Assembly (NCBI RefSeq): GCF_028583545.1
Contig: NZ_CP087106.1
Coordinates: forward strand, 1,612,001-1,676,000
Direction: 5' to 3'
Length of the DNA stretch: 64,000 bases
Origin: Methylobacterium sp. NMS14P
GTDB lineage: Bacteria; Pseudomonadota; Alphaproteobacteria; Rhizobiales; Beijerinckiaceae
A model generated the notes under the pieces. The model worked only from the letters and a program-made list of their open reading frames with translations, was not told where the DNA came from and ran no database searches. The translations under genes were made by a program, and so were the position numbers. Shown one piece after another: positions 45,852-64,000 of the stretch (within the stretch, counting starts at the first letter, position 1; each line of letters begins with the position of its first letter).

Positions 45852-46120
45852 GGCGGGAGAGGATAATCGAGCGTCCAACGCCAGCAACCTCCGTGGGCGT
45901 CATACGTCGAAGAGGGCGCATGGTAACGAGATTGGACGGGCACCGAAGCCAGAACGAAAAAAGGTATGGCTTGAAACCCGAGAGAGGCTTGGAGCTCATG
46001 TGCCACGGAGAGTTGGCTACGCGAACGGCGGTCACTACCCCTGGATGTACGCGGGTTTCTACCTTAGGACCGTGCAACCGTAGAATTCCGCCTCTCACCG
46101 CCGCGGAGCGCATCCAAGTC

Positions 46121-47620
46121 ATGGACCGCCTCACACTATTAAAATCCCTCTCTTTTGGTTCACAGGTGGCCGAAGAGGAAATCCAGGATCTGGGAAAATA
46201 TTTCGTCCAGACAGATCAATGGAATAGAATCATAAAGGGCGAGATTGATATTATACGCGGGGAGAAGGGCGCCGGGAAAAGCGCTATCTATCTCCTACTC
46301 AACCAAAACATCAACGAACTTTTTGACAAAAGAGTCTTGCTAGTCAACGCAGAAAATCCGAAGGGCAGCACCGTATTCAAGGATCTGGTATCAGACCCGC
46401 CTGCATCTGAAGCAGAATTTATCTTGCTTTGGAAACTCTACATTCTGGTTCTGATCGTCTCTCAGATGAGAGAATATGGCTTAAGCGGAAAGAACATGGG
46501 AGCCGTGCTCCTCGCCTTGGAAGAGGCGCAGCTCATAGAGACCGAGCTGAATCTCAGCGGACTCCTCAGAACGGCGCAGATCCTCGCGCGACGCCTTCTA
46601 TCCAAGAGCCGCATAGAAACGGGCGTCGAGCTTGAACCTGTGTCAGGCATGCCTGCGGGCATCATCGGCCGCATCTCGCTCGCGGAGCCGGATCGCAAGT
46701 TGCGCGAAAGAGGGGTCAATTCCCTTGATGGATATCTGCGCATAGTCAATGATGTTTTGGCCGAAAACAAAATTTCGGTTTGGGTGCTCCTCGATCGACT
46801 CGACGTCGCCTTCGCAGAAAATCACACCCTCGAAGCCAACGCGATAAGAGCGCTGCTTCGAGTATACGGGGACCTTAGATCTCTGGACAATATCGCACTC
46901 AAGATCTTTCTGCGCGAAGACATATGGAAACGCATTACTGAAAATTTTAGAGAAGCAAGCCACCTAATCCGATACGAGATTGTCGAGTGGACTCAACCAA
47001 CCCTCTTGAATCTTATACTGAGACGGGTTCTCAATAACGAAACTTTAGTGAGTGAACTAAATCTCGATCCGGTAGCCATTCTTGCGGACGTAAATAAACA
47101 AAACGATCTATTTGAATTGATTTTCCCGCCACAGGTTGAGCAGGGAACGCAAAAATCTCCGACTTTTAAGTGGATGGTCACACGATGCGCCGATGGAAAG
47201 GGTAAAACCGCACCGAGAGAACTGATCCATCTTTTAAAGAGCATCAAAGACCAAGAAGTTCGAAGAATGGAGCGCGGCGGAGGCCTGCCGCCAAGCGGCC
47301 AATTGTTCGATAGGTCCGTATTCAAAGCCGCCCTACCCGCGGTTTCTGACGCTCGCCTGAAAACGTACATTTTCGCCGAGTACATGTCGGAGAAGCCGTT
47401 TATTGAGCGACTCTACAGGCAGAAGACTGAACACACTCCGGAAAGCCTTGGCGCACTCTGGGGAGTAAATAGAGATACGGCTATCCGCAAGGCTGACCAG
47501 CTTGTCGAGCTTGGGTTTTTTGAAAGACGCGGCACCAACCAGGAGCCAACTTTTTGGATCCCATTCCTGTACCGCGATGCCTTGAATTCAGTCCAAGGAA
47601 AAGCTGACGCCGACGATTGA
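46121..47620 (+). CDS. P-loop ATPase, Sll1717-like, possible defence ATPase
   Basis: A 499-residue protein from the ATG at 46121; the frame is open further upstream but the extension looks non-coding. Walker A is RGEKGAGKSAIY (about residue 46), Walker B is VWVLLDRLDVAF (about 222), and arginine-finger and sensor candidates lie in LKIFLREDIWKRI. The C-terminal part has a winged-helix-like region (SLGALWGVNRDTAIRKADQL). The architecture resembles STAND/Sll1717-type ATPases often near defence genes. Codon use is visibly more A/T-rich than its neighbours, suggesting separate acquisition. Confidence 0.7.
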   Translation: MDRLTLLKSLSFGSQVAEEEIQDLGKYFVQTDQWNRIIKGEIDIIRGEKGAGKSAIYLLLNQNINELFDKRVLLVNAENPKGSTVFKDLVSDPPASEAEFILLWKLYILVLIVSQMREYGLSGKNMGAVLLALEEAQLIETELNLSGLLRTAQILARRLLSKSRIETGVELEPVSGMPAGIIGRISLAEPDRKLRERGVNSLDGYLRIVNDVLAENKISVWVLLDRLDVAFAENHTLEANAIRALLRVYGDLRSLDNIALKIFLREDIWKRITENFREASHLIRYEIVEWTQPTLLNLILRRVLNNETLVSELNLDPVAILADVNKQNDLFELIFPPQVEQGTQKSPTFKWMVTRCADGKGKTAPRELIHLLKSIKDQEVRRMERGGGLPPSGQLFDRSVFKAALPAVSDARLKTYIFAEYMSEKPFIERLYRQKTEHTPESLGALWGVNRDTAIRKADQLVELGFFERRGTNQEPTFWIPFLYRDALNSVQGKADADD

Positions 47621-49078: not shown

Positions 49079-49097
49079 CGTCAGCAATTTCAGCTAA

Positions 49098-49158
49098 GTG
49101 CTTGAAAACCCTGGCGCGCCCTACGGGAATCGAACCCGTGTTTTCGCCGTGAAAGGGC
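49098..49158 (-). repeat. Second tRNA-Glu 3' fragment: island 1/island 2 junction
   Basis: A perfect 61-bp copy of 1194-1254. The tRNA sequence again stops in the anticodon arm: upstream on the minus strand there is no D arm or 5' acceptor strand, so this is also a fragment. It marks the right end of island 1 and the left end of island 2. Confidence 0.9.
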
Positions 49159-49298
49159 GACATCTGGCACATGATGGCACCTCACGATACGCCCTGGCAC
49201 TCGTTTAATCACAACGACTTGTATCACCTGATGCCTTTGCGTTCCAGTTCGTTTCGTGGCATTGTTGGCAACGAATTTGACAACGAAAAGGGTCGACG

Positions 49299-50552
49299 AT
49301 GCCGCGCCGCCGCAGCGTCCTCGCAAGCCGCACGAGCCGATCCGATCTGCCGCCCTCGGACGCGCCGGAATGGGAGCTGATCAGCCCAGGCGTGCGCCTC
49401 GGCTATCGCCGCGGGCGGGGCACGCGGGGGCAGGGCGGATCGTGGCTCGCCGCCTCCCGCTCAGCCGACGGTAGGCGCGCACAGACCAAGCTCGGGAAGG
49501 CGGACGATCTGACCGTCGCGGACGGGACCGGCATCCTCACGCACGAGCAGGCCAAGGATGCGGCCCGGGCTTGGGTGAAGTCGCTGCGCGTCGCACCTGA
49601 CGCGCAGCCAGCTCTGACGGTCGCCGACGCGCTGGAGCGCTACCTCGAAGCGCGCACTGCTGAGGGGATGAAGGCGGTCTATGACGCCCGATCACGGGCG
49701 CGCGTCCACATTCTCCCCAAACTCGGACTGCTGCGCGTGGCGGATCTGACGCTCGACAAGCTGCGACGCTGGCGCGACGCGTTGGTGACAGCCCCGAAGC
49801 GCCTGAGGACCGGCCGGCACGCTGCAAAGGCTAACACCCGGGATGTGGACATTTCGGACCCGGAAGCGCTGCGCCGCCGCCGCGATACGGCCAACCGCAC
49901 GCTCACCCTGCTCAAGGCCGCGCTGAACTGGGCCTACCAGCATCAGCTCGTCGAAAGCGATCGCGCGTGGCGCCTGCTCAAGCCGTTCCGGGACACGGGA
50001 GCCGCCCGGGTGCGCTTCCTAGACTCAGCCGAGCAGCAGCGACTGCTCAACACTGCGCAAGGCGCCCTGCGGGACCTGGTTGCGGCGGCGCTTATGACGG
50101 GCGCCCGCTTCGGCGAGCTGGCTGCCCTCAAGGTTCAGGACTTCGAGCGTGCGAACGGCACGGTGTTCATCGAGCGGAGCAAGAATGGCCGAGCTCGCCA
50201 CATCCCCCTGACTGCCGGAGGCTCGGCGCTCTTCAAACGGCTGGCGGTCGGGCGGGATCCTCTCGCGCCGCTACTGCGCGGCGACACCGGCACGGCCTGG
50301 AAGCCGGCGCAGTATCAGCGAGCGTTTAAAGCTGCGCTGGAGCAGGCGAAGCTTGAGAGCATTACCCTGCACGAACTGCGGCACTCCTACGCGAGTGCGA
50401 TGGTGCGGAACGGCGCACCATTAATCGTCGTCGCTGAAGCGCTTGGTCATTCCGGCACCCGGATGGCCGAAAAGCACTACGCGCACTTGGCGCCATCGTA
50501 CGTTGCGGACACAATCCGCCTAACGGCACCTAATTTATCCGCCCCAATCTAA
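49299..50552 (+). CDS. Tyrosine recombinase / phage-type integrase of island 2
   Basis: A 417-residue integrase. The catalytic set is Arg270 in MTGARFGELAAL, the HxxR box in HELRHSYAS (about residues 359-365), His in EALGHSGTR and the nucleophile Tyr394 in EKHYAHLAP. The sequence differs substantially from the integrase at 1376-2686, although both lie next to the same tRNA-Glu fragment. Two unlike enzymes therefore appear to use the same target. No partner gene follows in the same direction. Confidence 0.93.
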   Translation: MPRRRSVLASRTSRSDLPPSDAPEWELISPGVRLGYRRGRGTRGQGGSWLAASRSADGRRAQTKLGKADDLTVADGTGILTHEQAKDAARAWVKSLRVAPDAQPALTVADALERYLEARTAEGMKAVYDARSRARVHILPKLGLLRVADLTLDKLRRWRDALVTAPKRLRTGRHAAKANTRDVDISDPEALRRRRDTANRTLTLLKAALNWAYQHQLVESDRAWRLLKPFRDTGAARVRFLDSAEQQRLLNTAQGALRDLVAAALMTGARFGELAALKVQDFERANGTVFIERSKNGRARHIPLTAGGSALFKRLAVGRDPLAPLLRGDTGTAWKPAQYQRAFKAALEQAKLESITLHELRHSYASAMVRNGAPLIVVAEALGHSGTRMAEKHYAHLAPSYVADTIRLTAPNLSAPI

Positions 50553-52170: not shown

Positions 52171-52788
52171 TTAGCTGTCTTCCGGCTTCCAATAGAGAGG
52201 AACGGCATGATGCTTGACGTAGAAAGTTTCTCCACTACCCTTGTGCGGGTGAGCTGAATTGAATTGGAGGCTACTCACTTTTTCGACCGCCTCAGTGAAC
52301 GCCCACCGTCGAGCGAGCGCTTGCTCCCACTTTCCCAGCAGCGCGCCTGCATTTTCTTGATCAAAGTAGATAATCATTGCACCGTTGTTCTGGTTCGGCA
52401 GGCCGGTAGCATAGCGGGTCATCAGCTGGCGGAAACCTTTGAAAATCCACGCCTTACCCGTCCAGTTCTTTGCCTCCCCAATCCATAGAAAGCCGTCCCG
52501 CATCTCAACAGAAATGTCTGTATGACCGCCTATTTTCACATCATGGTACGCCGGAAATCCCGCCATCTGGAGCAGCGATACGAGTTCAACCGTGCGCTGA
52601 TCCTCGCTCAAATCATGCTTGTATTTGCGATTGCGCACCAATTGCCCGATCGCCAACGCCAGAGCACGCTCCAGCTGCTGCAGCATCTCTGCCGGTGTTT
52701 CGGCAGCCTGAATTCGCAGCTGAATTTCGAGCGGGGTGTTATTATGCGCGCGGTTGAGCAGATCTCGGAGAGTTATTTCAGACGTCAT
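52171..52788 (-). CDS. PD-(D/E)XK-like nuclease, third gene of unknown cassette
   Basis: About 205 residues from the ATG at 52786-52788. A restriction-endonuclease-like core is suggested by GGHTDISVEMRDGFLWIGEA followed by KNW: an Asp, then E-x-K after a hydrophobic strand. A helical N-terminus (LRDLLNRAHNNTPLEIQLRI) precedes it. The start lies within the end of the upstream gene (11-bp overlap), so translation is coupled. It probably cleaves nucleic acid as the effector of this three-gene unit; this is inference. Confidence 0.6.
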   Translation of the reverse strand: MTSEITLRDLLNRAHNNTPLEIQLRIQAAETPAEMLQQLERALALAIGQLVRNRKYKHDLSEDQRTVELVSLLQMAGFPAYHDVKIGGHTDISVEMRDGFLWIGEAKNWTGKAWIFKGFRQLMTRYATGLPNQNNGAMIIYFDQENAGALLGKWEQALARRWAFTEAVEKVSSLQFNSAHPHKGSGETFYVKHHAVPLYWKPEDS

Positions 52789-53218
52789 GGCTACCCGTAA
52801 GCGCGGCCACAAACTCGGTTGATGCTCGAAACACAGGCTTCAGCTGCTGCTCGAAATTGGCCACCTCCTCACCCGTACGAGGATGAATGAACAACGCCTC
52901 ATCCACTGACTGCATCGCCTCCTTAACTGAGAGGGCAATTTCTCGGTCCTCATCAGCATCGTAGAATACAAAATACATAGTCAGCGGGTGGTGCTTGATT
53001 GTAGTTAAGGCTGTCAGAGCCGACTGGAAAACGTCGTCATCGGGTCGCCGCTGCACGAATTCTGCTAACAGCATATATGTGAGCCGCTGAAGCTGATTTG
53101 GCTTCATCGTCGACAAGCGATCCACAAGCGCACGGCAGACAGGCAGAAGCGGTTCGCGAATGTCGCGATCTATGTTCTGCCTGATGTCATCCAACGCCAT
53201 CGGACCGATATCACTCAC
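52778..53218 (-). CDS. Hypothetical protein, second gene of nuclease cassette
   Basis: A 146-residue soluble protein starting at a GTG that overlaps the upstream gene by 8 bp. It is mainly helical (PLLPVCRALVDRLSTMKPNQ, LQRLTYMLLAEFV) with a short strand segment (HPLTMYFVFYDADED). No motif is recognised. Overlaps on both sides make it an obligate part of the cassette. Confidence 0.6.
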   Translation of the reverse strand: MSDIGPMALDDIRQNIDRDIREPLLPVCRALVDRLSTMKPNQLQRLTYMLLAEFVQRRPDDDVFQSALTALTTIKHHPLTMYFVFYDADEDREIALSVKEAMQSVDEALFIHPRTGEEVANFEQQLKPVFRASTEFVAALTGSHDV

Positions 53219-54275
53219 GGTATTCTAGATGGTCAAGGATGCGATCGCGAACATAATCATAATCCTCGAAGGAAGCGCAGTTCCTCACAGCCATTTCTCC
53301 GATAAACGGATTAGCTTCGGCGGTATGAGCGGATGTGCCACTAATTGTCACCTCGGGCGCCGATGACACATCACGACCGAGATCGACGTGCCACAGCACG
53401 CTGGTCTTATAGATCTGGATCGGAGCATCCAGCACACCAATACCGCCTTGATGGTAGGCCTCATCGCGACAGCACTGTTCACCCCTTCGCGTTTTCTCAA
53501 GCTTCTGCGACGAGCCGGCTACCATGAAGCCCAGCTCAACCATCGCGCCATCACCCCGGGCATCGTATAGAGATTGCATTACGGGGAAAAGATTGACGCG
53601 GCCCGGAGCGAGATTACTCCCGAGGAGGCCATCAAAGCGCATCCGAGCTTGGTCAAGCGCGATCAAACCGTGGCGTTGATACATGCCAAATGGGAAGTCG
53701 ACTCGTAGTTCGACGTGCCTCCCCTCATTAGGAATCCAGAGCACATCTAAAGCCTCAAGCCACTGATGGCGGACTCCGATTAGCTCATTGAAGCCAGCGA
53801 GTTCATTGGCAGCTTCGTCGGTTAGTTCGGCCACAACGACCGTCTCTCGGGTGGCGAGATGGCGAACTGAAGCGAGGACGAGGGCTTTGCCCCCTCGATA
53901 GTTTACGCTTGCGATCAGGACCGGCGCCACGCCTTGCTGCGCTGCAAGGCGGTCTTCACCAAGGAGCACCGGGTACGCCTCACTGAACGGCCCCTCAGGC
54001 ACCTCCAGCGCTTCAGCGGCCTCCCGCAACCTAGCTATCTCGTTGTCGTCCAACTCGAAAAGCTGGACGATTTTCTCGCCGCACATGATGTGCTCTTCGA
54101 GGGCGCTTCGCAGCTCTTCCTCGGCCTCGTCGTACTGATCGTCACCATTGGCGACGCGAGCCACCATTCTGTTCCATCCACGGGCCCGAGCCAGACCCCG
54201 GGACTTGAGGAGACGCTTTGCCACCGCCCATGGCATCCTTGCGCGCATACTGCGGACCACATCGACGGTAGCCAA
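53211..54275 (-). CDS. Hypothetical protein, first gene of nuclease cassette
   Basis: A 354-residue protein starting at a TTG with AGAGGG upstream. The N-terminal 90 residues are helical and charged. The middle holds APVLIASVNYRGGKALVLAS, LTDEAANELAGFNELIG and VELRVDFPFGMYQRHGLIAL, with beta-rich regions further on. No family is recognised. It could be a sensor or regulator for the nuclease of the cassette. Confidence 0.6.
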   Translation of the reverse strand: MATVDVVRSMRARMPWAVAKRLLKSRGLARARGWNRMVARVANGDDQYDEAEEELRSALEEHIMCGEKIVQLFELDDNEIARLREAAEALEVPEGPFSEAYPVLLGEDRLAAQQGVAPVLIASVNYRGGKALVLASVRHLATRETVVVAELTDEAANELAGFNELIGVRHQWLEALDVLWIPNEGRHVELRVDFPFGMYQRHGLIALDQARMRFDGLLGSNLAPGRVNLFPVMQSLYDARGDGAMVELGFMVAGSSQKLEKTRRGEQCCRDEAYHQGGIGVLDAPIQIYKTSVLWHVDLGRDVSSAPEVTISGTSAHTAEANPFIGEMAVRNCASFEDYDYVRDRILDHLEYRE

Positions 54276-54386: not shown

Positions 54387-56450
54387 TTATCCTAGGTCAC
54401 CGAGGAACTCCGAAACGGGATGTACTCCGGTGATAAGGAGGCGGTCCCGCGCACGCGTGCTAGCGACGTAGAGCAGGTGCCGCTCGGTCTCGTAGACCTC
54501 CTCCAGCTCTGCCTCGTCGCCGACCGTGTCAATCCGCTCCTGAAGCGGCAGCACGCCATCGTCGCAGGCGAGCACGGCCACGGCCTTGAACTCTAGGCCC
54601 TTTGCCATGTGCATCGTGCCGACAATCACGCTCTCGACCGCTTTATTGAGCGCATCTCCCGGCTCTACAGGCACAAGGCCAGCCGCTTGGGCGACTGTGC
54701 GAGCGCGATCGAGCTGAGCACGGCTTCGAACGAACAGGCCGATCTCGGCCGGAGCGATGCCCTCTGCTCGAGCCGTGGACAGGAAGGCCAGGATTGCCTC
54801 GCGCTCAGCGGTCTCGTCGACGAGCTTCAGCACCTGAGGATGTGGCCCGTCAAAGACTGAGACTGTGCCTTTCCGCGTCTCCTCGCGCCCATCCATATCC
54901 TGGACAGCGCCAGGAAGCAGGCGGTCAGCCGCCTCGCGGATCTGATGGGAAGTCCGGTAGTTCACCTTGAGCGTGGTCGAGCGACCGCGCACGTCGATGC
55001 CCAGAGCCTTCCACGAGAACGGCGGCTGGAAGATACGCTGGCCGAGGTCGCCTGCGAAAAACAGGCGATCCTCGCCCTCGGGTGCGAGAGCGCGCAGGAA
55101 GCGCAGTTCCGGCACGCCGAGATCCTGGGCCTCGTCTACAACTACGTGTGTGAAGGGCGGTGCGGCGGACGCGCCGTAATCTGCCGCGAGGCTGCTGAAC
55201 ACACTCGCCCAGGTCGCAAGCCCTTGGGCGGCGAGGCGGGTGCGGGCTGCCATAAAAATCGGCCAGAGGGCGGTACGCTGCTTGGCGCCTAGCCGGCTGC
55301 GGCGGCCGGGGCGGGGCGTGTCGGCGTAAGCCATCTCGTCGGCGACCTGCCACGCATCGACCACATGGCGGAACTCGCTGACCAGGAACCGCTCGGACCA
55401 TACCATCGACCCGCTCGCAGCCTCGACGAGGGCGGCCCGGATCTGCTCCAGCGTCGCGACCCGAGGCCTGCGCGCGTGCACGAGTTGGTGCAGCTCATCC
55501 GCCAGCCCATCCCAGGATGCGACAGTGATGCGGCCCCGGGCGCTAGGCTCTGTCGCGACCAGGATGTCGACCTTGCGCTGGAGCGCATTGGCAAGCGGCT
55601 TCGAGAAGGTCGTGAGCAGCACCCGAGCGTGCGGGTTGGCGCGTGCGAGCCGCACGGCGCGGTGCACTGCCACCACGGACTTACCAGTGCCAGCCGAGCC
55701 GGCGACTCGGGCGGGACCGCTATAGGTCTTCTCGATTACGCCGGCCTGGGAGGGATGCAGGAACACCGACCAGCGCTCCCAGGGCGCGTCGAGGGCAGCC
55801 CGCAGCGCCTCAACATCCTCGATGACGCGGAAGCGGCGCTGCGCGTCCGGGTGCGCGAAGGGGTCGGCCGCCGGTTCGACGGGCTTCGGCAGGCGGCCGG
55901 TAGCTGCGAATTCCAGAAGAGCCTCGGCGGCTTCGGCCGGCAAGTGCGCGGCGAGGTCGAAGAAGCGCGCTTCGGTCGCTGCGCGGACCGGCTCGATCCA
56001 GTCCTCGGGGACGCCGACGCCGAGCAGGTCGTCGAGCTGGAGCGCGTCGAACAACGCAGGCTCCGGCGCCAGCCACTCGGCCTGCGCCTTTGCGAATAGG
56101 GCAGGGGCAGCCTCCTCGACCCGCTCGCGTGACTCAACAATCTGTAAGGCGCCGGTTCTCGGATGCGCCTCGATGCGCCGGCGCTCGGCCCAGGCGTAGG
56201 CCTTGTCGTGATGGTCGACGTAGGCGAGCAGCAGGCTGCCGGCGGTGCGGTGGACAATGATGCGGATGTCGCGGTTGGCCCGAACCGACCAGAAGTTCGG
56301 GTCCCGCGCTGCCTCGATTCGGTGAAACTGAAGGCCGGGTCCGGACGGATCAAGCTGCATGTCGAAGGCCGAGGTCTTCACAGCCTTCTGCTCCTGGGCA
56401 GGCAAGCGAGCGAGGGCGGCCGTGAAGGTGTCAGCTATACGGAACTCCAC
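54387..56450 (-). CDS. UvrD/Rep-type helicase with RelE-like N-terminal domain
   Basis: About 687 residues from a GTG at 56448-56450 with CAGGGAG upstream, 5 nt after the DUF429 gene. Residues 1-95 look like a RelE/ParE-type toxin fold (FTAALARLPAQEQKAVKTSA, FHRIEAARDPNFWSVRANRD, IRIIVHR). An SF1 helicase follows: Walker A GSAGTGKSVVA (about 253), DEAQD in HVVVDEAQDLG (about 437), VNYRTSHQIR, HMAKGLEFKAVAV and LLYVASTRARDRL. It is the last gene of the defence-type operon. Confidence 0.85.
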   Translation of the reverse strand: MEFRIADTFTAALARLPAQEQKAVKTSAFDMQLDPSGPGLQFHRIEAARDPNFWSVRANRDIRIIVHRTAGSLLLAYVDHHDKAYAWAERRRIEAHPRTGALQIVESRERVEEAAPALFAKAQAEWLAPEPALFDALQLDDLLGVGVPEDWIEPVRAATEARFFDLAAHLPAEAAEALLEFAATGRLPKPVEPAADPFAHPDAQRRFRVIEDVEALRAALDAPWERWSVFLHPSQAGVIEKTYSGPARVAGSAGTGKSVVAVHRAVRLARANPHARVLLTTFSKPLANALQRKVDILVATEPSARGRITVASWDGLADELHQLVHARRPRVATLEQIRAALVEAASGSMVWSERFLVSEFRHVVDAWQVADEMAYADTPRPGRRSRLGAKQRTALWPIFMAARTRLAAQGLATWASVFSSLAADYGASAAPPFTHVVVDEAQDLGVPELRFLRALAPEGEDRLFFAGDLGQRIFQPPFSWKALGIDVRGRSTTLKVNYRTSHQIREAADRLLPGAVQDMDGREETRKGTVSVFDGPHPQVLKLVDETAEREAILAFLSTARAEGIAPAEIGLFVRSRAQLDRARTVAQAAGLVPVEPGDALNKAVESVIVGTMHMAKGLEFKAVAVLACDDGVLPLQERIDTVGDEAELEEVYETERHLLYVASTRARDRLLITGVHPVSEFLGDLG

Positions 56451-56455
56451 CAGAG

Positions 56456-57256
56456 CTACTCCCTGCGACTCGGAATCCAGATTGCTGAAACATCGTCCCC
56501 GTGCGGCACCGCCTGCCCTTTCAAGGCAGTGATGCCGACCCAAGCGCAGACGATAGCGTCGAGCATGTCCTCCCACGATTTCAGGTCGCGGGTCTTATTC
56601 AAAAGGTTCGGTGCCCCGAGAGCAGCCCGTGTGCCAGCGATCTCATTGTCGAGCAGGTCGACGATCTTCTCCCAGGTCCCGAGAAGTGAGGTCCGTCTCT
56701 CCGCGGCGTCACGGCCGGGCCAATACTTCGCGGCCTTCTGCACCTTGTAGGGCAGTCGCTTCTCCGCTTGCGCAAGCTCGACAAGGGCGGGATGCGGATA
56801 GACCTCGATCAGGGCAGGCTCGTGCAGACGTTGCGTCGCCAGAGGGTAGCCGGCGCCTTCGAACGCGTCCTTGAGACGATTGGCAATCACACCCGGTCTC
56901 ACAGCGCTTGGCGTGTGCGTTGCGCACCAGCTCGCGCCATAGGCCCGAGAAACCGCATCGTCTGATGCTCGTCGTCCTGTGATCGGCTCGTGGGATAGCG
57001 GGATATCGACTGCAACTATGTCGATGGGGCATTCGCAATACGATCTTGCAGCTTGCAACAGCCGAGCAGGGTCAGGCAGCGAGCCTTTCGCGTCAGCCGG
57101 TGCGGCCTCGCTCGCTGTCGTCGGCGCCATGAACCGCTCATAGGACGGCGCCACCGAGACGAGATGCCATTGACCACTCCCTTCGGTGGCCAGGGCAATG
57201 CCGCTTCTCTGGTTCGAGGTCCAAGCCGCGTCGATGCCGAGGACAGCCCTGTTCAC
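56456..57256 (-). CDS. DUF429 family protein (RNase H-like fold)
   Basis: A 266-residue protein starting at a GTG, 3 nt after the methyltransferase gene. DUF429 features are AVLGIDAAWTSNQRSGIALA, IVAVDIPLSHEPITGRRASD and EVYPHPALVELAQ, with acidic residues placed as in RNase H-like folds. It ends with a WEDMLDAIVCAWVG helix that carries another Asp. DUF429 proteins are predicted nucleases, but their activity is not generally established. Position between Mod-like and helicase genes ties it to the defence operon. Confidence 0.8.
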   Translation of the reverse strand: MNRAVLGIDAAWTSNQRSGIALATEGSGQWHLVSVAPSYERFMAPTTASEAAPADAKGSLPDPARLLQAARSYCECPIDIVAVDIPLSHEPITGRRASDDAVSRAYGASWCATHTPSAVRPGVIANRLKDAFEGAGYPLATQRLHEPALIEVYPHPALVELAQAEKRLPYKVQKAAKYWPGRDAAERRTSLLGTWEKIVDLLDNEIAGTRAALGAPNLLNKTRDLKSWEDMLDAIVCAWVGITALKGQAVPHGDDVSAIWIPSRRE

Positions 57257-57259
57257 GCT

Positions 57260-60200
57260 CTACACCCCATAGACCTTCATCACCTCGTCCCCAAAGTGAT
57301 TGATAACCTTCACGGCGATGCGTCCCGTCTTCGGCCGCACGAACGGCCGGCTTGTGGCGCGGTAGAGAGTCGCCCAGGCAGCCTCGTCGATCTCCGCCTT
57401 CAGTGCGGTCTTCAGCGTCTTGTAGGGGTCGTTCGCGCCCAGGAAATAAGCGTGTCGGACGAAGAAGCTCTCCTCGTCGTAGTCGGTGTCGACGAACCAA
57501 GCGGCAATACCCGACGTGTCGTCCGAGCGGACATCGCCGGTGTTGGGGTCGAATACGTCGATCCCCTTCACCTCCACCTCCAGCCGATCACCGTCGAGGC
57601 GGCGAATCTCAATGTCCGGTTCGCCGAACACCACGAATAGGTTCCCCTTGCCCGTGGTCTTAAGGTCATCGGCCATGTGCAGGTCGGGGTTCATCTTGGC
57701 CTGCAGGATCGGCAGGGGCCCGAGCTTGGTCAGCTCGCTTGCATGCGCGTCGTACGCGAAGGCGCAAGCGACCAGAACGTCGAAGCGCGCGTCGGCCGCC
57801 TCACGGGCGGCAGCCACAAGATCCGGGCGGGAGAGCGTGCCAAATTCGGGGCCGATCAGGATCGCGGCGCGGCGCTCGACACCCTCGCCTTCTGTGAACC
57901 GCCCCTCGGCGCCGATAAAGCGACCGGGCCAGGGCTGGAGCATAGTGAAGCGCAACCGGTCAGCGCGGTCACGGCCCTGAACGCCGGCGGCCGAAAGGTT
58001 CTCTAGCACCATAGAGGAGAAGTCTTGCGCCGGGGCGGTGGCCTGGTCGCGGAGCCGGCGCCCGCCCAGCGCCTCGAACTCCTCGTTGAGGTCGAGACTG
58101 TCTGCGGGGATGACGCGGTGGGGCGATAGGCTCTCCACCGTGAACGGGCCGGCGACCCGGACCTTGCCAGCGTCTACATAGGGCCGGTCGTAGAGCATCT
58201 CTACGTCGGCGGCCCGAGCAATCGCAGCGTCGATCTCGCGCTGCCGAGCGAGCCGCGCCTCCCACCACGCAGCATGGATACGGACCGCGTCCGGATAGAA
58301 TTCCTCCAGCGCATCTGCCGGACGCTCGGGCAGAGTGGCGAGAGTGTAGTCCCACTCCCACTCGGCATTCATCCGATCGATGGCGCGCTGCCGGGCTGGA
58401 GTAGGTTGCCTGGGATCTTTTGCGCAGGCGTGCAGCACCTGAAATTCGGCGTCCCAGGGCCGCTCAGGCTCCCGCGGGATCTGCCACTCCTCCCAAGCGG
58501 TCTCCAGCAGCGCGTTCAGTTCCGCGCGAAGCGGCTCTAAGGTCGCTTGCCATCGCTCCCAGATCACGTCGATCTCGGCGTTGTTGGCGATTGACTTGAG
58601 GGTGACGTGTGGCGCGCGCTCGTAGACGAAGCCCTGACGGATGTCGCCATAGGCTGCGCTTTGCGGCTGCGGGCGGCCCGAGATCGCCTGCTCCTTTGCC
58701 CGGCCTTCAGGGCTGTCATTTAGCAGGTAGTAAGGGTAGCGAGCCGACATTAGCCGCGTACGGGCAAGCGCAAGCGCCACGCGGCTTGTGTCGACAGTGA
58801 TCCAGCGCCGGCCCCACTGCTCAGCGACCGTCGCGGTTGTGCCAGAACCGCAGGTGGGATCTAGGACGAGATCACCGGGGTCAGTGGCCATTAGGATGCA
58901 GCGTTCGATCACTCGCGGAGTTGTTTGCACTACATACAATTTTTCCTGACCGAACCCACTCTGCCTCGTGTCATCCCACAAGTTATTATACGACTGGAAT
59001 GGAAAATCATAAAAGTTCCGAGCGAATGTCAAAGTGTTTCCCATGCCGTAAAGCCTGTTAGCTTTATGCAATCTGCCAAAACCAATAATATTAGTCTTCC
59101 ATCCACCCTTTGACGGCTTGTATTCTGTCCCACAAACTGTGTAAGGAAATCGAGTGGTGGGGGCACCAGTCTGCGATGTGAGAGGGCTAGCCCTAAAAAT
59201 CGTCTTTTTTTCGAGATCCGAACGATCCGAGAGGTTTTCCTTAGAGGTTAGCGTCTTTACCTCATTACTTTCATTACGATAAAAGCGATAATTCGAGTCG
59301 TCCGACGGATCTCTCAGGAAGTACATTTGACGATACTTAACACATGATCGATCTTTGCAATACCAAATTACATAATCAGCAACCGATGCCAATACATCTG
59401 TCCCGATTGAAGGACTACCGGCACCGGTAGTCTTCAGGACGAAAATCAAAGAACAGAAATTTGCTGCTCCAAAGACCTCATCCATGACCGCGCGAACACG
59501 GTGAACATTCTCATCACCAATTTGCACAAAGATCGACCCGCTCTCATGCAGCAGCTCTCGAGCCACAGTGAGCCGGTCGCGCAGATAGGTGAGATACGAG
59601 TGGATGCCCTCCTTCCAGGTATCGCGGAACGCCTTCACCTGCTCGGGCTCGCGGGAGATGTCAGTCTGCTTGCCGTCCTTGACGTCGCGCGACTGCGTCG
59701 AGACCTGCCAGTTCGAGTTGAACTTGATGCCGTAGGGGGGGTCGAAGTAGATGCACTGCACCTGCCCCTTCACCTTCTCGCGCTGCGCGAGCGAGGCCAT
59801 CACCTGGAGCGAGTCGCCCAGGATCATCCGGTTCGACCAATGCTGGTCGTGAGTGTAGAACTCGGTGCGCGCCTTTGAGTCGAGACCGTTAAAATCAGCA
59901 AACAGGTCGGGAACGTCGTCTTCGCGCGCGCGCGCGTCGGTGCGGCGCAAGTCGTCGATAATCGCCTTGGGGTGGATCTTCTCCTGGATGTATAGGGGCG
60001 GCGCCTGAACGATGAGGTCGGACCAGTCCTGCTGGTCTTTGCCGCGCCAAACGAGCTGCGCGTCGCCGATCGCTGTCTCGCCGGTCGCGACTAGTGCGCG
60101 CACCTGCTCCTCGGTGAGCTTGATACGGGCGCCGTTCCAGACGATCTGCGGATCGAGGTCCGGGTCGCGCGGTCGCGTCTCGCCTTTTGGAAGCGGCCGG

Positions 60201-60355
60201 GCGCGAGGATATGACTCGGGCCTAAAACCTGTGATTGCCTCCTCGGCCTCAGCGAAGCTCTGCAACTCGGCGGTGGGGATGTTCTTCCGCGCAGCCTCGT
60301 CATGCGTGAGGGTCTCGACCGACTTGGTCGCGTTGCGGGCGGGTCCACGAGCCAT
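57260..60355 (-). CDS. Adenine-specific DNA methyltransferase, type III Mod-like
   Basis: A 1031-residue methyltransferase, longer than usual type III Mod proteins. Motif IV DPPY in CIYFDPPYGIKFNSNW (about residue 203) comes before motif I LDPTCGSGTTATVAEQWG (about 500), the beta-class order of type III and similar N6-adenine enzymes. The N-terminal 150 residues and a large C-terminal region are extra. The latter (FRASPL, DPNTGDVRSDDTSG, DFSSMVLENLSAAGVQG) may bind DNA or the partner helicase. The ATG shares a base with the DUF262 gene stop. Confidence 0.9.
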   Translation of the reverse strand: MARGPARNATKSVETLTHDEAARKNIPTAELQSFAEAEEAITGFRPESYPRARPLPKGETRPRDPDLDPQIVWNGARIKLTEEQVRALVATGETAIGDAQLVWRGKDQQDWSDLIVQAPPLYIQEKIHPKAIIDDLRRTDARAREDDVPDLFADFNGLDSKARTEFYTHDQHWSNRMILGDSLQVMASLAQREKVKGQVQCIYFDPPYGIKFNSNWQVSTQSRDVKDGKQTDISREPEQVKAFRDTWKEGIHSYLTYLRDRLTVARELLHESGSIFVQIGDENVHRVRAVMDEVFGAANFCSLIFVLKTTGAGSPSIGTDVLASVADYVIWYCKDRSCVKYRQMYFLRDPSDDSNYRFYRNESNEVKTLTSKENLSDRSDLEKKTIFRASPLTSQTGAPTTRFPYTVCGTEYKPSKGGWKTNIIGFGRLHKANRLYGMGNTLTFARNFYDFPFQSYNNLWDDTRQSGFGQEKLYVVQTTPRVIERCILMATDPGDLVLDPTCGSGTTATVAEQWGRRWITVDTSRVALALARTRLMSARYPYYLLNDSPEGRAKEQAISGRPQPQSAAYGDIRQGFVYERAPHVTLKSIANNAEIDVIWERWQATLEPLRAELNALLETAWEEWQIPREPERPWDAEFQVLHACAKDPRQPTPARQRAIDRMNAEWEWDYTLATLPERPADALEEFYPDAVRIHAAWWEARLARQREIDAAIARAADVEMLYDRPYVDAGKVRVAGPFTVESLSPHRVIPADSLDLNEEFEALGGRRLRDQATAPAQDFSSMVLENLSAAGVQGRDRADRLRFTMLQPWPGRFIGAEGRFTEGEGVERRAAILIGPEFGTLSRPDLVAAAREAADARFDVLVACAFAYDAHASELTKLGPLPILQAKMNPDLHMADDLKTTGKGNLFVVFGEPDIEIRRLDGDRLEVEVKGIDVFDPNTGDVRSDDTSGIAAWFVDTDYDEESFFVRHAYFLGANDPYKTLKTALKAEIDEAAWATLYRATSRPFVRPKTGRIAVKVINHFGDEVMKVYGV

Positions 60356-62223
60356 CAGCGGACCTCACTCAGAAGTGCAGCGTCGTCCGCTAGCGCGGCG
60401 TTCTCAGAAAACGCCTCAGCCTCATCGTCCGGGTCAAGCGGGGGTTGCGGGTCCAGTCCGGACGCAACGGCGTCTGTCGGAGGCGGCACGTCCCGTAAGG
60501 CCGGTCGCTTGGTCGCGTCGTCGATCAGGTCGAGGAGGCCGTCGAGGCGCGCGGCGAAGAACCCATGAAAGTCGTCGGCGCGCAACCGCGCCGGGTCGAT
60601 GGCATGGCTGCGCAAGTAGGTGTCGAGGTTCGCTGGATCAACTGGCGGCTTCGCCGCCTCCAGGCGGTGGAGATACTTGCTCGGCGCGACGCCGCCGAGC
60701 ATCCGGTTCGTCTTGGCAGACAGGGGTGTCTTGTTAACGATCGAGTCGAACGCACTCGCAGGCAGCTTCTGCTCCTGACACCAATCACGCGGAAAGATGT
60801 GGTGGATGTCGACGCTCTCGTCGAAGAACACCGCATGGTCATAGTCCTGACCCGACCGGAAATCCGTGGCCCCACTCTTCATCAGCAGGGCGTTGACGCC
60901 CTTGTAGGCCGCGGAGCCACGGGAGCGCAGCTCGCGGATGCGGCTGGCGCGCACGCTCGTATCCTTGAGCGTCGAGGGCTCCGGCCCGCCGTCGATCCAG
61001 GCCAACACCTCCACGACATCCTTGGCGAAGCGGGACTCGGCGGCCGAGCCGTAGAGTTCACCGAAGACGCCGCACCAGTACCAGGTGCGCACGCACTGTT
61101 TGGGCTGCTGGTGCTCCCAGCGGTCACCCAGCGAGGCGAGGATCGCAGCGAGCGGCACGATCTGGCTCTGGTAGGGCAGGTCGAACGAACGGTAGATCCG
61201 CTGCGTATGAAGGAACTTCGCGGCGCGCTCGAAGCCGAGTTGCAATCGATCGGCGTGGGTCTGGTAGGCCTCAACAGGCAGCGCCAGCAGGGCGTTGCGG
61301 GTGGCGCTCACCGGCGGCCGTCGATCATCGCTGCCGGCAGCGGCGTCCCGCTGGGCCTTCGAGTGCAGGAGCGCAATACCCTGCAAGAAATCCGTCGGAG
61401 CGATCTTCTCAAGCGCACGGAATTTCTTAAGTGCAGCGGCGCGCTTCGCCCAGTCCTCCCGCAGCTTGAAGCCCTTGCCGGCGAACATGGCTGTTATCAG
61501 CTCGAAAGCGTCGAGCGCTTTGCCGCCAGTATTCACCTTCTCGAAGACCAGACATACGGCTTCGTTTGTCGTTGATTTATCCAATGATATGACGGGAACT
61601 TGATACTTTCTAAATGAATCCACAATCTTTTCGCGAAATGCCTTCAAAATCAGCCGCTTGGACTTATTATCGTCCCAATAGTCCCAAAAGCCCTCTTGCC
61701 AACTTTCGTGGTCAAAGATTTTGTTCAAAGGGAAGCGAAGATGCTCATATTCTTTATCAGACGTCGAGAGATCAAGGACAACATCTTTGCCGAAATTGGT
61801 CCGTAAAATGCGGTCTTTGGGAAAAGCTTCGATCGCATCCTCGCGGTCGACGGATGGATCGAGGGCTTTATCAATGTTGAAATAGTAGAAGACATCGATC
61901 TTCTCGATCGGGTTCTGCCGGACGAGCGCCTGATACAGCGACGTCATACGCTGCTGGCCGTCGAGGAGCAGTTCACTCTCCGTCGCTACTTCGGCCTGAA
62001 CCGGCGCACCTTGGATTGCGCGCGGCGTGAACGTCTTCCCGGACGACTTCAACGTCATCAGGGCTCCCACCGGAAATGCTTGAGAAAGGGACGCGATTAG
62101 ACTCCGGATGCGATACTCATCCCAAACCCAATTGCGCTGAAAGTCCGGGAGCTTGATGTCGCCCTGTTCACAACGCTGCAGGAGAGTGTGGAGCGAGACA
62201 GGGTTGGTGGTGAACGTGGTCAT
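60355..62223 (-). CDS. DUF262/HNH protein (GmrSD-like) inside the RM-type operon
   Basis: About 622 residues from the ATG at 62221-62223, which overlaps the upstream stop. The N-terminal DUF262 (ParB-like) domain has SLHTLLQRCEQGDIKLPDFQ, RNWVWDEYRIRSLI and LLLDGQQRMTSLYQALV (about 82-98). The C-terminal HNH nuclease is VDIHHIFPRDWCQEQ (about 470). GmrSD-type proteins are NTP-dependent nucleases that attack modified DNA. Here it lies between the helicase-nuclease and the methyltransferase. Confidence 0.9.
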   Translation of the reverse strand: MTTFTTNPVSLHTLLQRCEQGDIKLPDFQRNWVWDEYRIRSLIASLSQAFPVGALMTLKSSGKTFTPRAIQGAPVQAEVATESELLLDGQQRMTSLYQALVRQNPIEKIDVFYYFNIDKALDPSVDREDAIEAFPKDRILRTNFGKDVVLDLSTSDKEYEHLRFPLNKIFDHESWQEGFWDYWDDNKSKRLILKAFREKIVDSFRKYQVPVISLDKSTTNEAVCLVFEKVNTGGKALDAFELITAMFAGKGFKLREDWAKRAAALKKFRALEKIAPTDFLQGIALLHSKAQRDAAAGSDDRRPPVSATRNALLALPVEAYQTHADRLQLGFERAAKFLHTQRIYRSFDLPYQSQIVPLAAILASLGDRWEHQQPKQCVRTWYWCGVFGELYGSAAESRFAKDVVEVLAWIDGGPEPSTLKDTSVRASRIRELRSRGSAAYKGVNALLMKSGATDFRSGQDYDHAVFFDESVDIHHIFPRDWCQEQKLPASAFDSIVNKTPLSAKTNRMLGGVAPSKYLHRLEAAKPPVDPANLDTYLRSHAIDPARLRADDFHGFFAARLDGLLDLIDDATKRPALRDVPPPTDAVASGLDPQPPLDPDDEAEAFSENAALADDAALLSEVR

Positions 62224-64000
62224 CACGCAGCCTTGGAGGGGTTGATCAATGTGTCGACGAGTTCGCCAAAAGCCGTCTCGATGGCGAACACATCGCGGAA
62301 TTCGTGGAAAGCGAAGCGGCCGTGCGCGCCCAGCGCGTTGACCCCCGGCACCCAGGACACAGCCATTGTCTCGGCTTTGAGCTGTGCGTCGGTACCGCGA
62401 TAGCCCTTGGTCTCCAGCACTAGAGTGAGCGGGTCGGGCCGACCGTCGTCCAGGCGCACGAGAAAATCCGGTCGGTAGCGGCGCGGGACAGCCCCGTCGC
62501 GATAAGGCACCTCGAAGCCAAGCCCCTGGTTCTTCACGTAGGCGAGCACCCGCGGGTGCGCCTCCAGCACCCGAGCGAGCTCGCCCTCCCACTCGGAGTC
62601 GAGCACGACGTGGCTGACGTGACACTTACTGGGGTCGGTCTCCCAGACCGGCTTTGAGGTGGTGAAGTTCACGAACCGGGTCGAGCCCACCGGGTTATAA
62701 GGGTCGGGCACGGCCTTGATGCGCTTAGCATCTGGGATCGAGCGCTGACAGGCGAGATAGATGAACTCCACCGCCTGCTCGGCGAGTTGCGGGTAGAGCA
62801 CGGCGGCCCGCGGGACACCCTTAGCAACGAGGTAGTCCCCGTCGAGCCAGAGCCGCACGACGCGCTGGGCCTGCCCGAACAGGTGGACAGGCAGGTGATC
62901 ATCCGGATCTCGCAAGCGCGTCTCTAGCAGGCGCTTGGCGAGCTTGAACGACAGCTCACTCGGGCGCATCGTCTTGAAGGCTTCCTCAGCGTCCAGCGTC
63001 TCCTGCTCACCGACGATGCCGGCCATAAGCACCTTGGCCGGGCCAACGTTCTCTGGTGTCAGGACGAGGCGGCTGTCGTCAGTGAAGGTCGCGGTCAGCC
63101 GCTCATTCGGCAGGTCGAAGCGGTAGCCCTCGATGCGGGGGAAGCCGATCTCCAAGTCTGCGCGCTCACGCAGGGCCTGGACGCGGGTAAGCTTGCGAGG
63201 CGCGGCTGGCACCGAGACCACGGGCTCGGCCGTAAACGAGAACGGGATGCCGAGGATGTCGGCATACTCGACATTGAACAGCCCCTGGTCGTTGAGCTCA
63301 TAGGACTGACGGCGCAGGCCGCGCCCGACCACCTGCTCGCATAGGAGCTGCGTGCCGAAGGCGCGCACGCCGAGGATGTGAGTGACGGTGTTGGCGTCCC
63401 AGCCCTCAGTCAGCATTGAGACCGAGACGACGCAACGCACACGTTCGCCGAGCCGCCCCTTGCGGCCGACCGTATTCATCACCTCACGCAGCAAGTCTGC
63501 GTCTGTGGTCTCGGCCGCCGTGACCGCGTCGACGCCGCGCTCGATCCGCTCGCGGCGGAACTGCTCAATCTCCGACCCCATCATGTCGCGGAAGGCGGGG
63601 TCGAGGGCCTCGCCCGACTCGAGCTGCTCGCTGTCGATGAGCAGCGTGTTAGGTTTGGCGAGGCGTTGACGGTTGTCATCGTAGTTGCGGAATAGGCGCA
63701 GGTGCCCGACGTGCCGCGTCTCGGCCTCACCGTCTGCGTTGGCGCGCTCGAAGCCGGCGATCCACTCGTAGACGAGCTTGGAAGTCGCCGTGTTGTTGCA
63801 CACAACGATGAACACGGGCGGCACATCTATGCCGGCCCGCTCCCAGGCCTCGCTGGTCTTCTCGTAATGCGCGTAAAGGGCGTGGAGCGCCGTTTGGAGC
63901 TGGCTCGGGAAGACGTGAGAGAGCGGGTCGAGGGTGCCGGCCTTGCCTGCGCCCTTCTTCGGCATCGCCTTGCCGATGTGCTCCCACAGCTCACGGTAGA
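62223..64000 (-). CDS. Type III Res-like helicase-nuclease, N-terminal part beyond window
   Basis: The frame is open to the window edge (reading YRELWEHIGKAMPKKGAG), so the protein continues to the right and only its C-terminal ~590 residues are seen. SF2 helicase motifs V and VI are present: VSVSMLTEGWDANTVTHILG and QVVGRGLRRQ. A C-terminal PD-(D/E)XK nuclease is visible as YRPDFLVRLDDGRPDPLTLV followed by LETKGYRG. With the Mod-like protein it forms a type III-like restriction pair. The stop overlaps the DUF262 start (ATGA). Confidence 0.9.
   Translation of the reverse strand, partial: YRELWEHIGKAMPKKGAGKAGTLDPLSHVFPSQLQTALHALYAHYEKTSEAWERAGIDVPPVFIVVCNNTATSKLVYEWIAGFERANADGEAETRHVGHLRLFRNYDDNRQRLAKPNTLLIDSEQLESGEALDPAFRDMMGSEIEQFRRERIERGVDAVTAAETTDADLLREVMNTVGRKGRLGERVRCVVSVSMLTEGWDANTVTHILGVRAFGTQLLCEQVVGRGLRRQSYELNDQGLFNVEYADILGIPFSFTAEPVVSVPAAPRKLTRVQALRERADLEIGFPRIEGYRFDLPNERLTATFTDDSRLVLTPENVGPAKVLMAGIVGEQETLDAEEAFKTMRPSELSFKLAKRLLETRLRDPDDHLPVHLFGQAQRVVRLWLDGDYLVAKGVPRAAVLYPQLAEQAVEFIYLACQRSIPDAKRIKAVPDPYNPVGSTRFVNFTTSKPVWETDPSKCHVSHVVLDSEWEGELARVLEAHPRVLAYVKNQGLGFEVPYRDGAVPRRYRPDFLVRLDDGRPDPLTLVLETKGYRGTDAQLKAETMAVSWVPGVNALGAHGRFAFHEFRDVFAIETAFGELVDTLINPSKAA

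Follow-up and report, generated by a model that had tools for sequence, protein, structure and literature searches.

Type III restriction-modification (RM) systems of the EcoP15I class combine a Mod methyltransferase, in which a DPPY motif is followed by a recognition region and then by motif I, with a Res protein that joins an SF2 helicase to a PD-(D/E)XK motif; cutting requires two inverted unmethylated sites and a Mod2Res1 complex. GmrSD-type (type IV) nucleases, a second relevant class, are defined by cleaving modified DNA only. Relatives such as BrxU and SspE combine, in a single chain, a DUF262 N-terminal domain with an HNH-like motif at the C-terminus. In EcoP15 the methylase gene lies upstream, and BrxU, although encoded in a BREX island, works without depending on BREX (excerpts of PMC12707154). 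Defence genes embedded in defence operons have already been published (work cited in an excerpt of PMC12988326), and the ptuXYZ operon combines a YoeB-like domain with a DUF262 protein (excerpts of PMC11980606). Here we describe an operon in a window of 64,000 nucleotides from Methylobacterium sp. NMS14P (NZ_CP087106.1, positions 1,612,001 to 1,676,000) whose genes, in coding-strand order, encode Res, a DUF262/HNH protein, Mod, a DUF429 protein and a UvrD-family helicase with an N-terminal RelE-like domain (RelE-UvrD). We consider it probable that this is a type III-like RM operon built from a three-gene core, namely Res, Mod and RelE-UvrD, together with two fixed positions for exchangeable secondary genes.

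The five genes are tightly packed and leftward (Table 1), as a first-pass annotation of the window had described apart from small corrections. The Res/DUF262 and DUF262/Mod junctions are 1-nt overlaps (TGATG in each case), the gap between Mod and DUF429 is 3 nt and that between DUF429 and UvrD is 5 nt; junctions as tight as these make a single transcript for all five genes likely. The families and motifs of Res and Mod also agree with the type III-like pair of that annotation. The part of Res inside the window (62223 to 64000; the reading frame overruns the window end by 1.26 kb) matches the NCBIfam BPTD_3080 family (4.4e-198, 660 bits, with a curated cut-off of 800). The whole protein matches Pfam ResIII (38 bits, above the cut-off) and stays just under the cut-off of RE_endonuc; no relative was found in the PDB at E 1e-3. 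The Res motifs Walker A (G-K-T), D-E-x-H, P-D and E-x-K are kept in all 54 aligned proteins. Mod matches Pfam N6_N4_Mtase (6.8e-31) and PADLOC MTase_III (1149 bits), and the solved structures closest to it in sequence are those of a Mod methyltransferase (6k0w, 6.5e-16) and of EcoP15I Mod (4zcf, 1.7e-11). DPPY and DPTCGSG, with a variable region between them, are present in 80 of 80 aligned Mods (the window and 79 further loci, with locus L013 left out).

The locus differs from the EcoP15I class in several respects. Res precedes Mod, here and in all 78 loci that have both genes; Mod has about 1000 residues, with an additional C-terminal third that is conserved but has no Pfam match; and the pair is accompanied by RelE-UvrD as a third core gene and by the two slots. 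We retain the term type III-like and regard Res-then-Mod as a variant arrangement, because the mechanism is not defined by the order of the genes. In the window Mod, residues of about 630 to 690 (58285-58470) form an insertion: positions 631 to 660 are gapped in most, and positions 661 to 690 in all, of the 79 other aligned Mods, while L013, which is outside this alignment, does align across the segment.

The core was delimited by a survey with Mod as bait, in which each species was represented by one genome. Of 143 matching stretches the best 80 were retained, all of them chosen by Mod patterns, and the core genes were located by tblastn with the five window proteins. Res is found upstream on the same strand in 78 of the 80 Mod loci, both misses being at contig ends. 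RelE-UvrD is found downstream on the same strand in 66 of the 80. In 8 of the 14 loci without it the downstream contig is shorter than 9.9 kb, and the other 6 absences are real. The UvrD matches begin within the first 12 residues and reach at least residue 680 in 63 of these 66 loci (the other three are partial), hence the RelE-like part is fused to the helicase in 63 loci. The complete five-gene set occurs in none of the 80 loci and was seen in the window only. The loci are mostly proteobacterial, and record titles also name Planctomycetaceae, Acidobacteria, Verrucomicrobia, Caldilineaceae, Nitrospinaceae, Hydrogenedentota and Desulfobacteraceae. For the 54 of 81 loci (window included) whose three core proteins are intact and uncut, pairwise identities correlate strongly (Res-Mod 0.943, Res-UvrD 0.937, Mod-UvrD 0.908; the best of 500 permutations reaches 0.19). 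As far as sequence comparison goes, gene order in the core is conserved and the core proteins diverge in parallel.

A reverse test in 385 genomes of the window's class agrees with this association. The genomes contain 18 RelE-UvrD genes at 48% identity or more, of which 14 lie within 6 kb of a Mod gene and four at contig starts, that is, 14 of 14 testable cases; in G162 and G260 the two genes are on opposite strands. One more match, at 35% identity, has no Mod match in the same genome. Plasmids provide 11 records with RelE-UvrD at 48% or more, 10 of which also have Mod nearby (9 strong matches). The tenth is a Sphingomonas aliaeris plasmid with Res and with Mod in two pieces near RelE-UvrD. 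Three Pseudomonas amygdali plasmids of the survey are near copies, and at least one record (G260, NC_017958, same coordinates) is common to the plasmid and class surveys. On plasmids the third core gene is often annotated as a 3'-5' exonuclease.

Slot 1 denotes the interval between Res and Mod, and slot 2 the interval between Mod and UvrD; only same-strand open reading frames (ORFs) of at least 70 residues were counted. The first interval is shorter than 300 nt in 34 of 78 loci and longer in 44; for the second, the corresponding counts are 11 and 55 of 66. In the longer intervals the median share covered by same-strand ORFs is 94% for slot 1 and 98% for slot 2, and 54 of 55 slot 2 intervals have their longest ORF on the operon strand. 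The 150 slot ORFs fall into 100 blastp clusters, many without a named family. One of the 22 multi-locus clusters occurs in both slots, whereas 2000 shuffles of the slot labels gave 14.0 on average and never fewer than 8.

Family scans covered 133 of the 136 slot ORFs with at least 120 residues (48 in slot 1 and 88 in slot 2; three slot 2 ORFs of locus L071 are left out), and the tallies overlap as one protein can match many profiles. Slot 1 (48 proteins) contains Fic (7), Bro-N (5), GmrSD_N (4) and PIN (3) proteins. Slot 2 (85 proteins, 25 of 60 Pfam families listed) contains AAA_21/SMC-type ATPases (6), DUF488 (2), DUF4276 (2) and many singletons. PADLOC profiles for embedded candidates match many slot proteins at E <= 1e-3; among the matches listed (25 of 103 and 25 of 440 in the two scans) are HEC-05, SoFic, PDC-S04 and PDC-S13 in slot 1, and HEC-01 and PDC-M32 in slot 2. 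Six slot 2 ATPases of other loci match GajA profiles, but match the HEC-01 and AriA profiles better. The arrangement resembles Hma-embedded and other embedded candidates in that extra genes matching HEC and PDC profiles reside in a defence operon. It differs in its host operon, which is type III-like with RelE-UvrD, and in having two positions with largely distinct repertoires. Hma itself consists of the Hma helicase, a methylase and an ATPase; among the PADLOC matches listed for the five operon proteins (25 of 56 for Mod, 25 of 34 for UvrD) there is no Hma profile. Literature searches returned, in titles and abstract beginnings among the matches listed, no description of a Res-Mod-RelE-UvrD operon or of the two slots, though a preprint on embedding (Payne et al. 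2024) may overlap.

Close relatives indicate how these positions change. In 22 pairs of loci with Res identity of at least 90%, the nucleotide alignment spans the Mod recognition region in one pair. Where the slot is occupied, meaning 300 nt or more on at least one side, the alignment spans slot 2 in 2 of 21 pairs and slot 1 in 3 of 9. At a Res identity of 85% or more, slot 2 is filled on both sides in 39 pairs, of which 8 have a common slot 2 family. The window itself provides three informative comparisons. Against L015, homology is continuous through Res, DUF262 and the N-terminus of Mod, breaks at the recognition region and at slot 2, and returns between the two and at UvrD. The L013 contig starts shortly upstream of Mod; in this comparison the recognition region alone is replaced and slot 2 is common. 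In L014 the replacement extends to all three positions, namely slot 1, the recognition region and slot 2. The window's recognition region has no nucleotide alignment to any of the three, with flanks that are about 80-87% identical. At the residue level, Mod identity in the recognition region is 0.1-0.5 for L014 and L015; along the comparison with L015 it is 0.1-0.4 over residues 301-480 and mostly 0.7-1.0 elsewhere, except for the insertion near residues 631-690. We note that in L013 (541-4459) Mod contains an in-frame stop and DUF429 a frame change, so this locus is decayed or mis-sequenced.

Across these alignments, slot 2 and the Mod recognition region are replaced far faster than the core, slot 1 holds many different genes across the set with slower change among close relatives, and the slots and the recognition region change separately. 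The exchanges most likely proceed by homologous recombination between the conserved core flanks.

Several observations weigh against this reading or narrow it. With regard to turnover, slot 1 is less mobile than slot 2: among pairs with Res identity of at least 85% and both sides filled, 7 of 9 have a common slot 1 family. The turnover contrast is moreover inflated, as the 22 close pairs come from few clades and are non-independent. For slot 1, 34 of 44 loci have their longest ORF on the operon strand, so that some slot 1 ORFs may be spurious, whereas the strand bias in slot 2 leaves the genes there well supported. The contrast with label shuffles is likewise inflated since it ignores the shared descent of loci, and slot specificity holds at the level of blastp clusters: a RhuM-type family occurs in both slots, and one of the slot 2 ORFs of L071 looks like a further DUF262 protein. 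With regard to the core, plain co-inheritance also yields correlated distances. UvrD is missing from 6 of 72 testable Mod loci, and the 21 Mod genes of the class survey (at least 54% identity) comprise 14 with UvrD and 7 without a UvrD match, some of the latter limited by contigs; L107 and L108, inspected over 20 kb, have Res and Mod and no UvrD. Because such loci exist, Res and Mod can probably work without RelE-UvrD. Conversely, RelE-UvrD is not exclusive to the core, as two relatives, both annotated as 3'-5' exonuclease, sit among other genes. The Qipengyuania citrea gene (52% identity; L110 8986-11043) is located beside a TM0106 nuclease and a DUF4011 protein with no Res or Mod within 9 kb, and a Thermus relative (37%; L113 7989-9983) is located beside a DEAD helicase and an N-6 methylase without the Res-Mod core.

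The helicase part of the third core protein, RelE-UvrD, matches Pfam UvrD_C (1.1e-16), and its fold is nearest to the UvrD and Rep helicases. The N-terminal domain remains under the Pfam cut-off (HigB-like, E 0.0084), and a search of the PDB by sequence, with the single sequence or with a profile, returns nothing; the fold is visible only by structure comparison. The predicted structure (pLDDT 93.6) assigns the domain to the RelE (BECR) fold, as the first-pass annotation had proposed, and the 50 matches listed by Foldseek and by VIA are either toxins of the RelE superfamily or proteins that contain a domain of this kind, including Cami1 (8phj). The domain thus resembles RelE, YoeB and YafQ toxins and Cami1 in fold and differs from them in being fused to a helicase outside an ordinary toxin-antitoxin pair; the gene is not arranged as part of a type II pair, the preceding gene being DUF429 here and varying elsewhere. 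The main text of PMC11980606, on RelE/ParE multidomain toxins, contains neither UvrD nor helicase. An alignment of 59 sequences, i.e. the window and 58 of 63 full-length UvrD relatives (L013, L021, L030, L047 and L077 are left out for uncertain start or unusual length), reveals 17 invariant residues in the RelE-like domain, including W, S, R, H and Y. RelE-UvrD has no match at 1e-30 in 50,697 phage records. Gabija GajB and other defence helicases likewise place a UvrD-like helicase in a defence operon, but the protein described here carries the N-terminal RelE-like domain. In PADLOC it shows a weak likeness to NERD-UvrD, at 91 bits, and to GajB, at up to 78 bits, and no GajA profile is among the matches listed for the other four operon proteins (all matches for Res, DUF262 and DUF429; 25 of 56 for Mod).

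For the core, motifs and family knowledge lead us to expect a type III-like restriction-modification role. Mod would N6-methylate host DNA at a site set by its recognition region, and Res would cut foreign DNA without the Mod mark. RelE-UvrD would act downstream of Res by loading on ends or forks made by Res, its helicase would process the cut DNA, and RNA cleavage by the RelE-like domain may serve as a backup. Genes in the slots would be independent layers, in the window a GmrSD-like enzyme directed against phages whose modified bases escape Res, together with the DUF429 protein. For DUF262, the precedent of BrxU argues for such an independent type IV layer. A more far-reaching version, which we regard as tentative and rather unlikely, is that the operon is an RM system with a suicide or growth-arrest arm: RelE-UvrD would sense Res-made ends or stalled cut DNA, the RelE-like domain would cleave ribosome-bound mRNA, and the slots would be standing landing sites that reload secondary defences independently of methylation specificity.

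The main rival to an action of RelE-UvrD on Res-made ends is a protective repair role, in which the protein shields the host by repairing or unloading breaks from accidental Res cutting and the RelE-like domain is a mere nucleic-acid-binding adaptor. The proximity of the fold to UvrD and Rep and the existence of Mod loci without RelE-UvrD are consistent with such a partner, but the invariant residues suggest that the RelE-like domain is more than a scaffold, and the likeness to the defence helicases NERD-UvrD and GajB, though weak, points the same way. We consider the protective role possible, yet clearly short of probable.

A different explanation is that the operon is a passive defence island, in which chance insertion piles genes up and only Res and Mod matter. 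The operon is very likely cargo of a 23.1-kb integrative element, as 71-bp exact repeats at a tRNA-Glu end flank it and an integrase gene starts inside the left copy, and other putative defence genes are near. However, the fixed core order, the single cluster found in both slots and the strong core correlation are unlike random insertion, as is the strand of the slot 2 genes, nearly all of which follow the operon (insertions having been surveyed in the two slot intervals). A passive island is therefore improbable.

The first-pass annotation had instead proposed one dedicated system of all five genes. In such a system DUF262 and DUF429 would be subunits acting with Res and Mod, and DUF262 would be tuned to non-self modification. 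The tight packing fits this proposal, and so does the recurrence of the DUF262 subfamily in slot 1: it is found there in 4 of 78 loci, namely L015 (88% identity), L022, L047 and L074 (41-44%), and in G169:C11 and G159:C25 of the class survey. The protein matches Pfam GmrSD_N (1.6e-28) and PADLOC PDC-M55C, and its relatives in the PDB by profile are the DUF262 proteins 7p9k and 20yv and SspE (6jiv). DGQQR is invariant, and an HH.FP...NKT motif is present, in 7 of 7 aligned relatives, the latter being assigned as HNH-like by motif reading with no Pfam HNH match. Like GmrSD, BrxU and SspE it is thus a single-chain enzyme, but one that lies inside a type III-like operon. Against subunit status, DUF262 is missing from 74 of 78 Res-Mod intervals, and of its seven places in the class survey three are in slot 1 (window included) and four are elsewhere, away from the core (one on a short contig). 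L046 has a weak DUF262 match (24%) after UvrD. The proposed tuning to the methylation of the adjoining Mod is weakened as well, because L015 keeps DUF262 beside a different recognition region.

DUF429 (Pfam 1.9e-15; PADLOC PDC-S44) is even less constant. It is missing from 79 of the 80 loci, recurring in slot 2 of L013 only. On plasmids (8 loci of 10 records), 7 of its relatives have a neighbour annotated as 3'-5' exonuclease, and none adjoins the Res-Mod-UvrD core. This neighbour is split in L011 and partial in L012. Of the three genes that the first-pass annotation expected to be kept with Res and Mod, UvrD is retained, DUF262 is retained in part and DUF429 is not; its statement that no named system has the five-gene set stands insofar as none was found, although the set itself is not a conserved unit. 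Slot turnover largely refutes the dedicated five-gene system, which is very improbable. As a separate observation, the combination of DUF429 with the annotated 3'-5' exonuclease gene recurs on plasmids of rhizobia (L005-L012), often near other defence-type genes.

Table 1. Genes of the operon and ends of the integrative element. Coordinates refer to the window unless a locus is named.
Feature	Coordinates	Strand	Remarks
Left att-like direct repeat	49091-49161		71 bp, exact
Tyrosine integrase	49299-50552	+	Pfam Phage_integrase 7.3e-26; starts 138 bp inside left repeat
RelE-UvrD	54387-56450	-	core gene; UvrD-family helicase; GTG start; N-terminal RelE-like domain at 56124-56450
DUF429 protein	56456-57256	-	slot 2 cargo; 266 aa; PADLOC PDC-S44
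Mod	57260-60355	-	core gene; type III-like beta-class N6 methyltransferase, 1031 aa
Mod target-recognition region, exchangeable	58912-59458	-	about residues 300-480; from nucleotide and residue comparison
DUF262/HNH	60355-62223	-	slot 1 cargo; GmrSD-like single chain, 622 aa; ATG start, alternative GTG at 62226
Res	62223-65261 (L003:223-3261)	-	core gene; SF2 helicase and PD-(D/E)XK motif, BPTD_3080-like; GTG start
Right att-like direct repeat	72114-72184 (in L003)		71 bp, exact; covers 3' part of tRNA-Glu gene

The surroundings of the operon contain further genes. A serine recombinase and a DUF3987 protein are encoded upstream of Res. Just downstream of the operon (52171-54275) are three overlapping leftward genes without Pfam families; one of them encodes a 213-aa protein with a weak PDC-S54 match and a relative (26.6% identical) in slot 1 of L067. 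A Sll1717-family P-loop ATPase (45893-47620; NCBIfam 3.9e-60; PADLOC PDC-M28C 5.2e-20), encoded in a low-GC stretch outside the element, is a putative further defence gene. Integration at the tRNA-Met gene (48067) was rejected: no exact repeat of at least 16 bp was found for it, while the tRNA-Glu end is repeated over 71 bp. A tRNA-Arg called by ARAGORN at 55039-55134 is probably a false positive because it lies inside the UvrD coding sequence.

If the proposed organization is correct, a widespread family that is filed as a site-specific methyltransferase and a restriction endonuclease would constitute a three-gene system, and each of its operons would offer two predictable positions where unknown defence genes can be found. 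Natural alleles share one slot but differ in the other slot or in the recognition region, and would permit tests of whether the cargo cooperates with its host operon.

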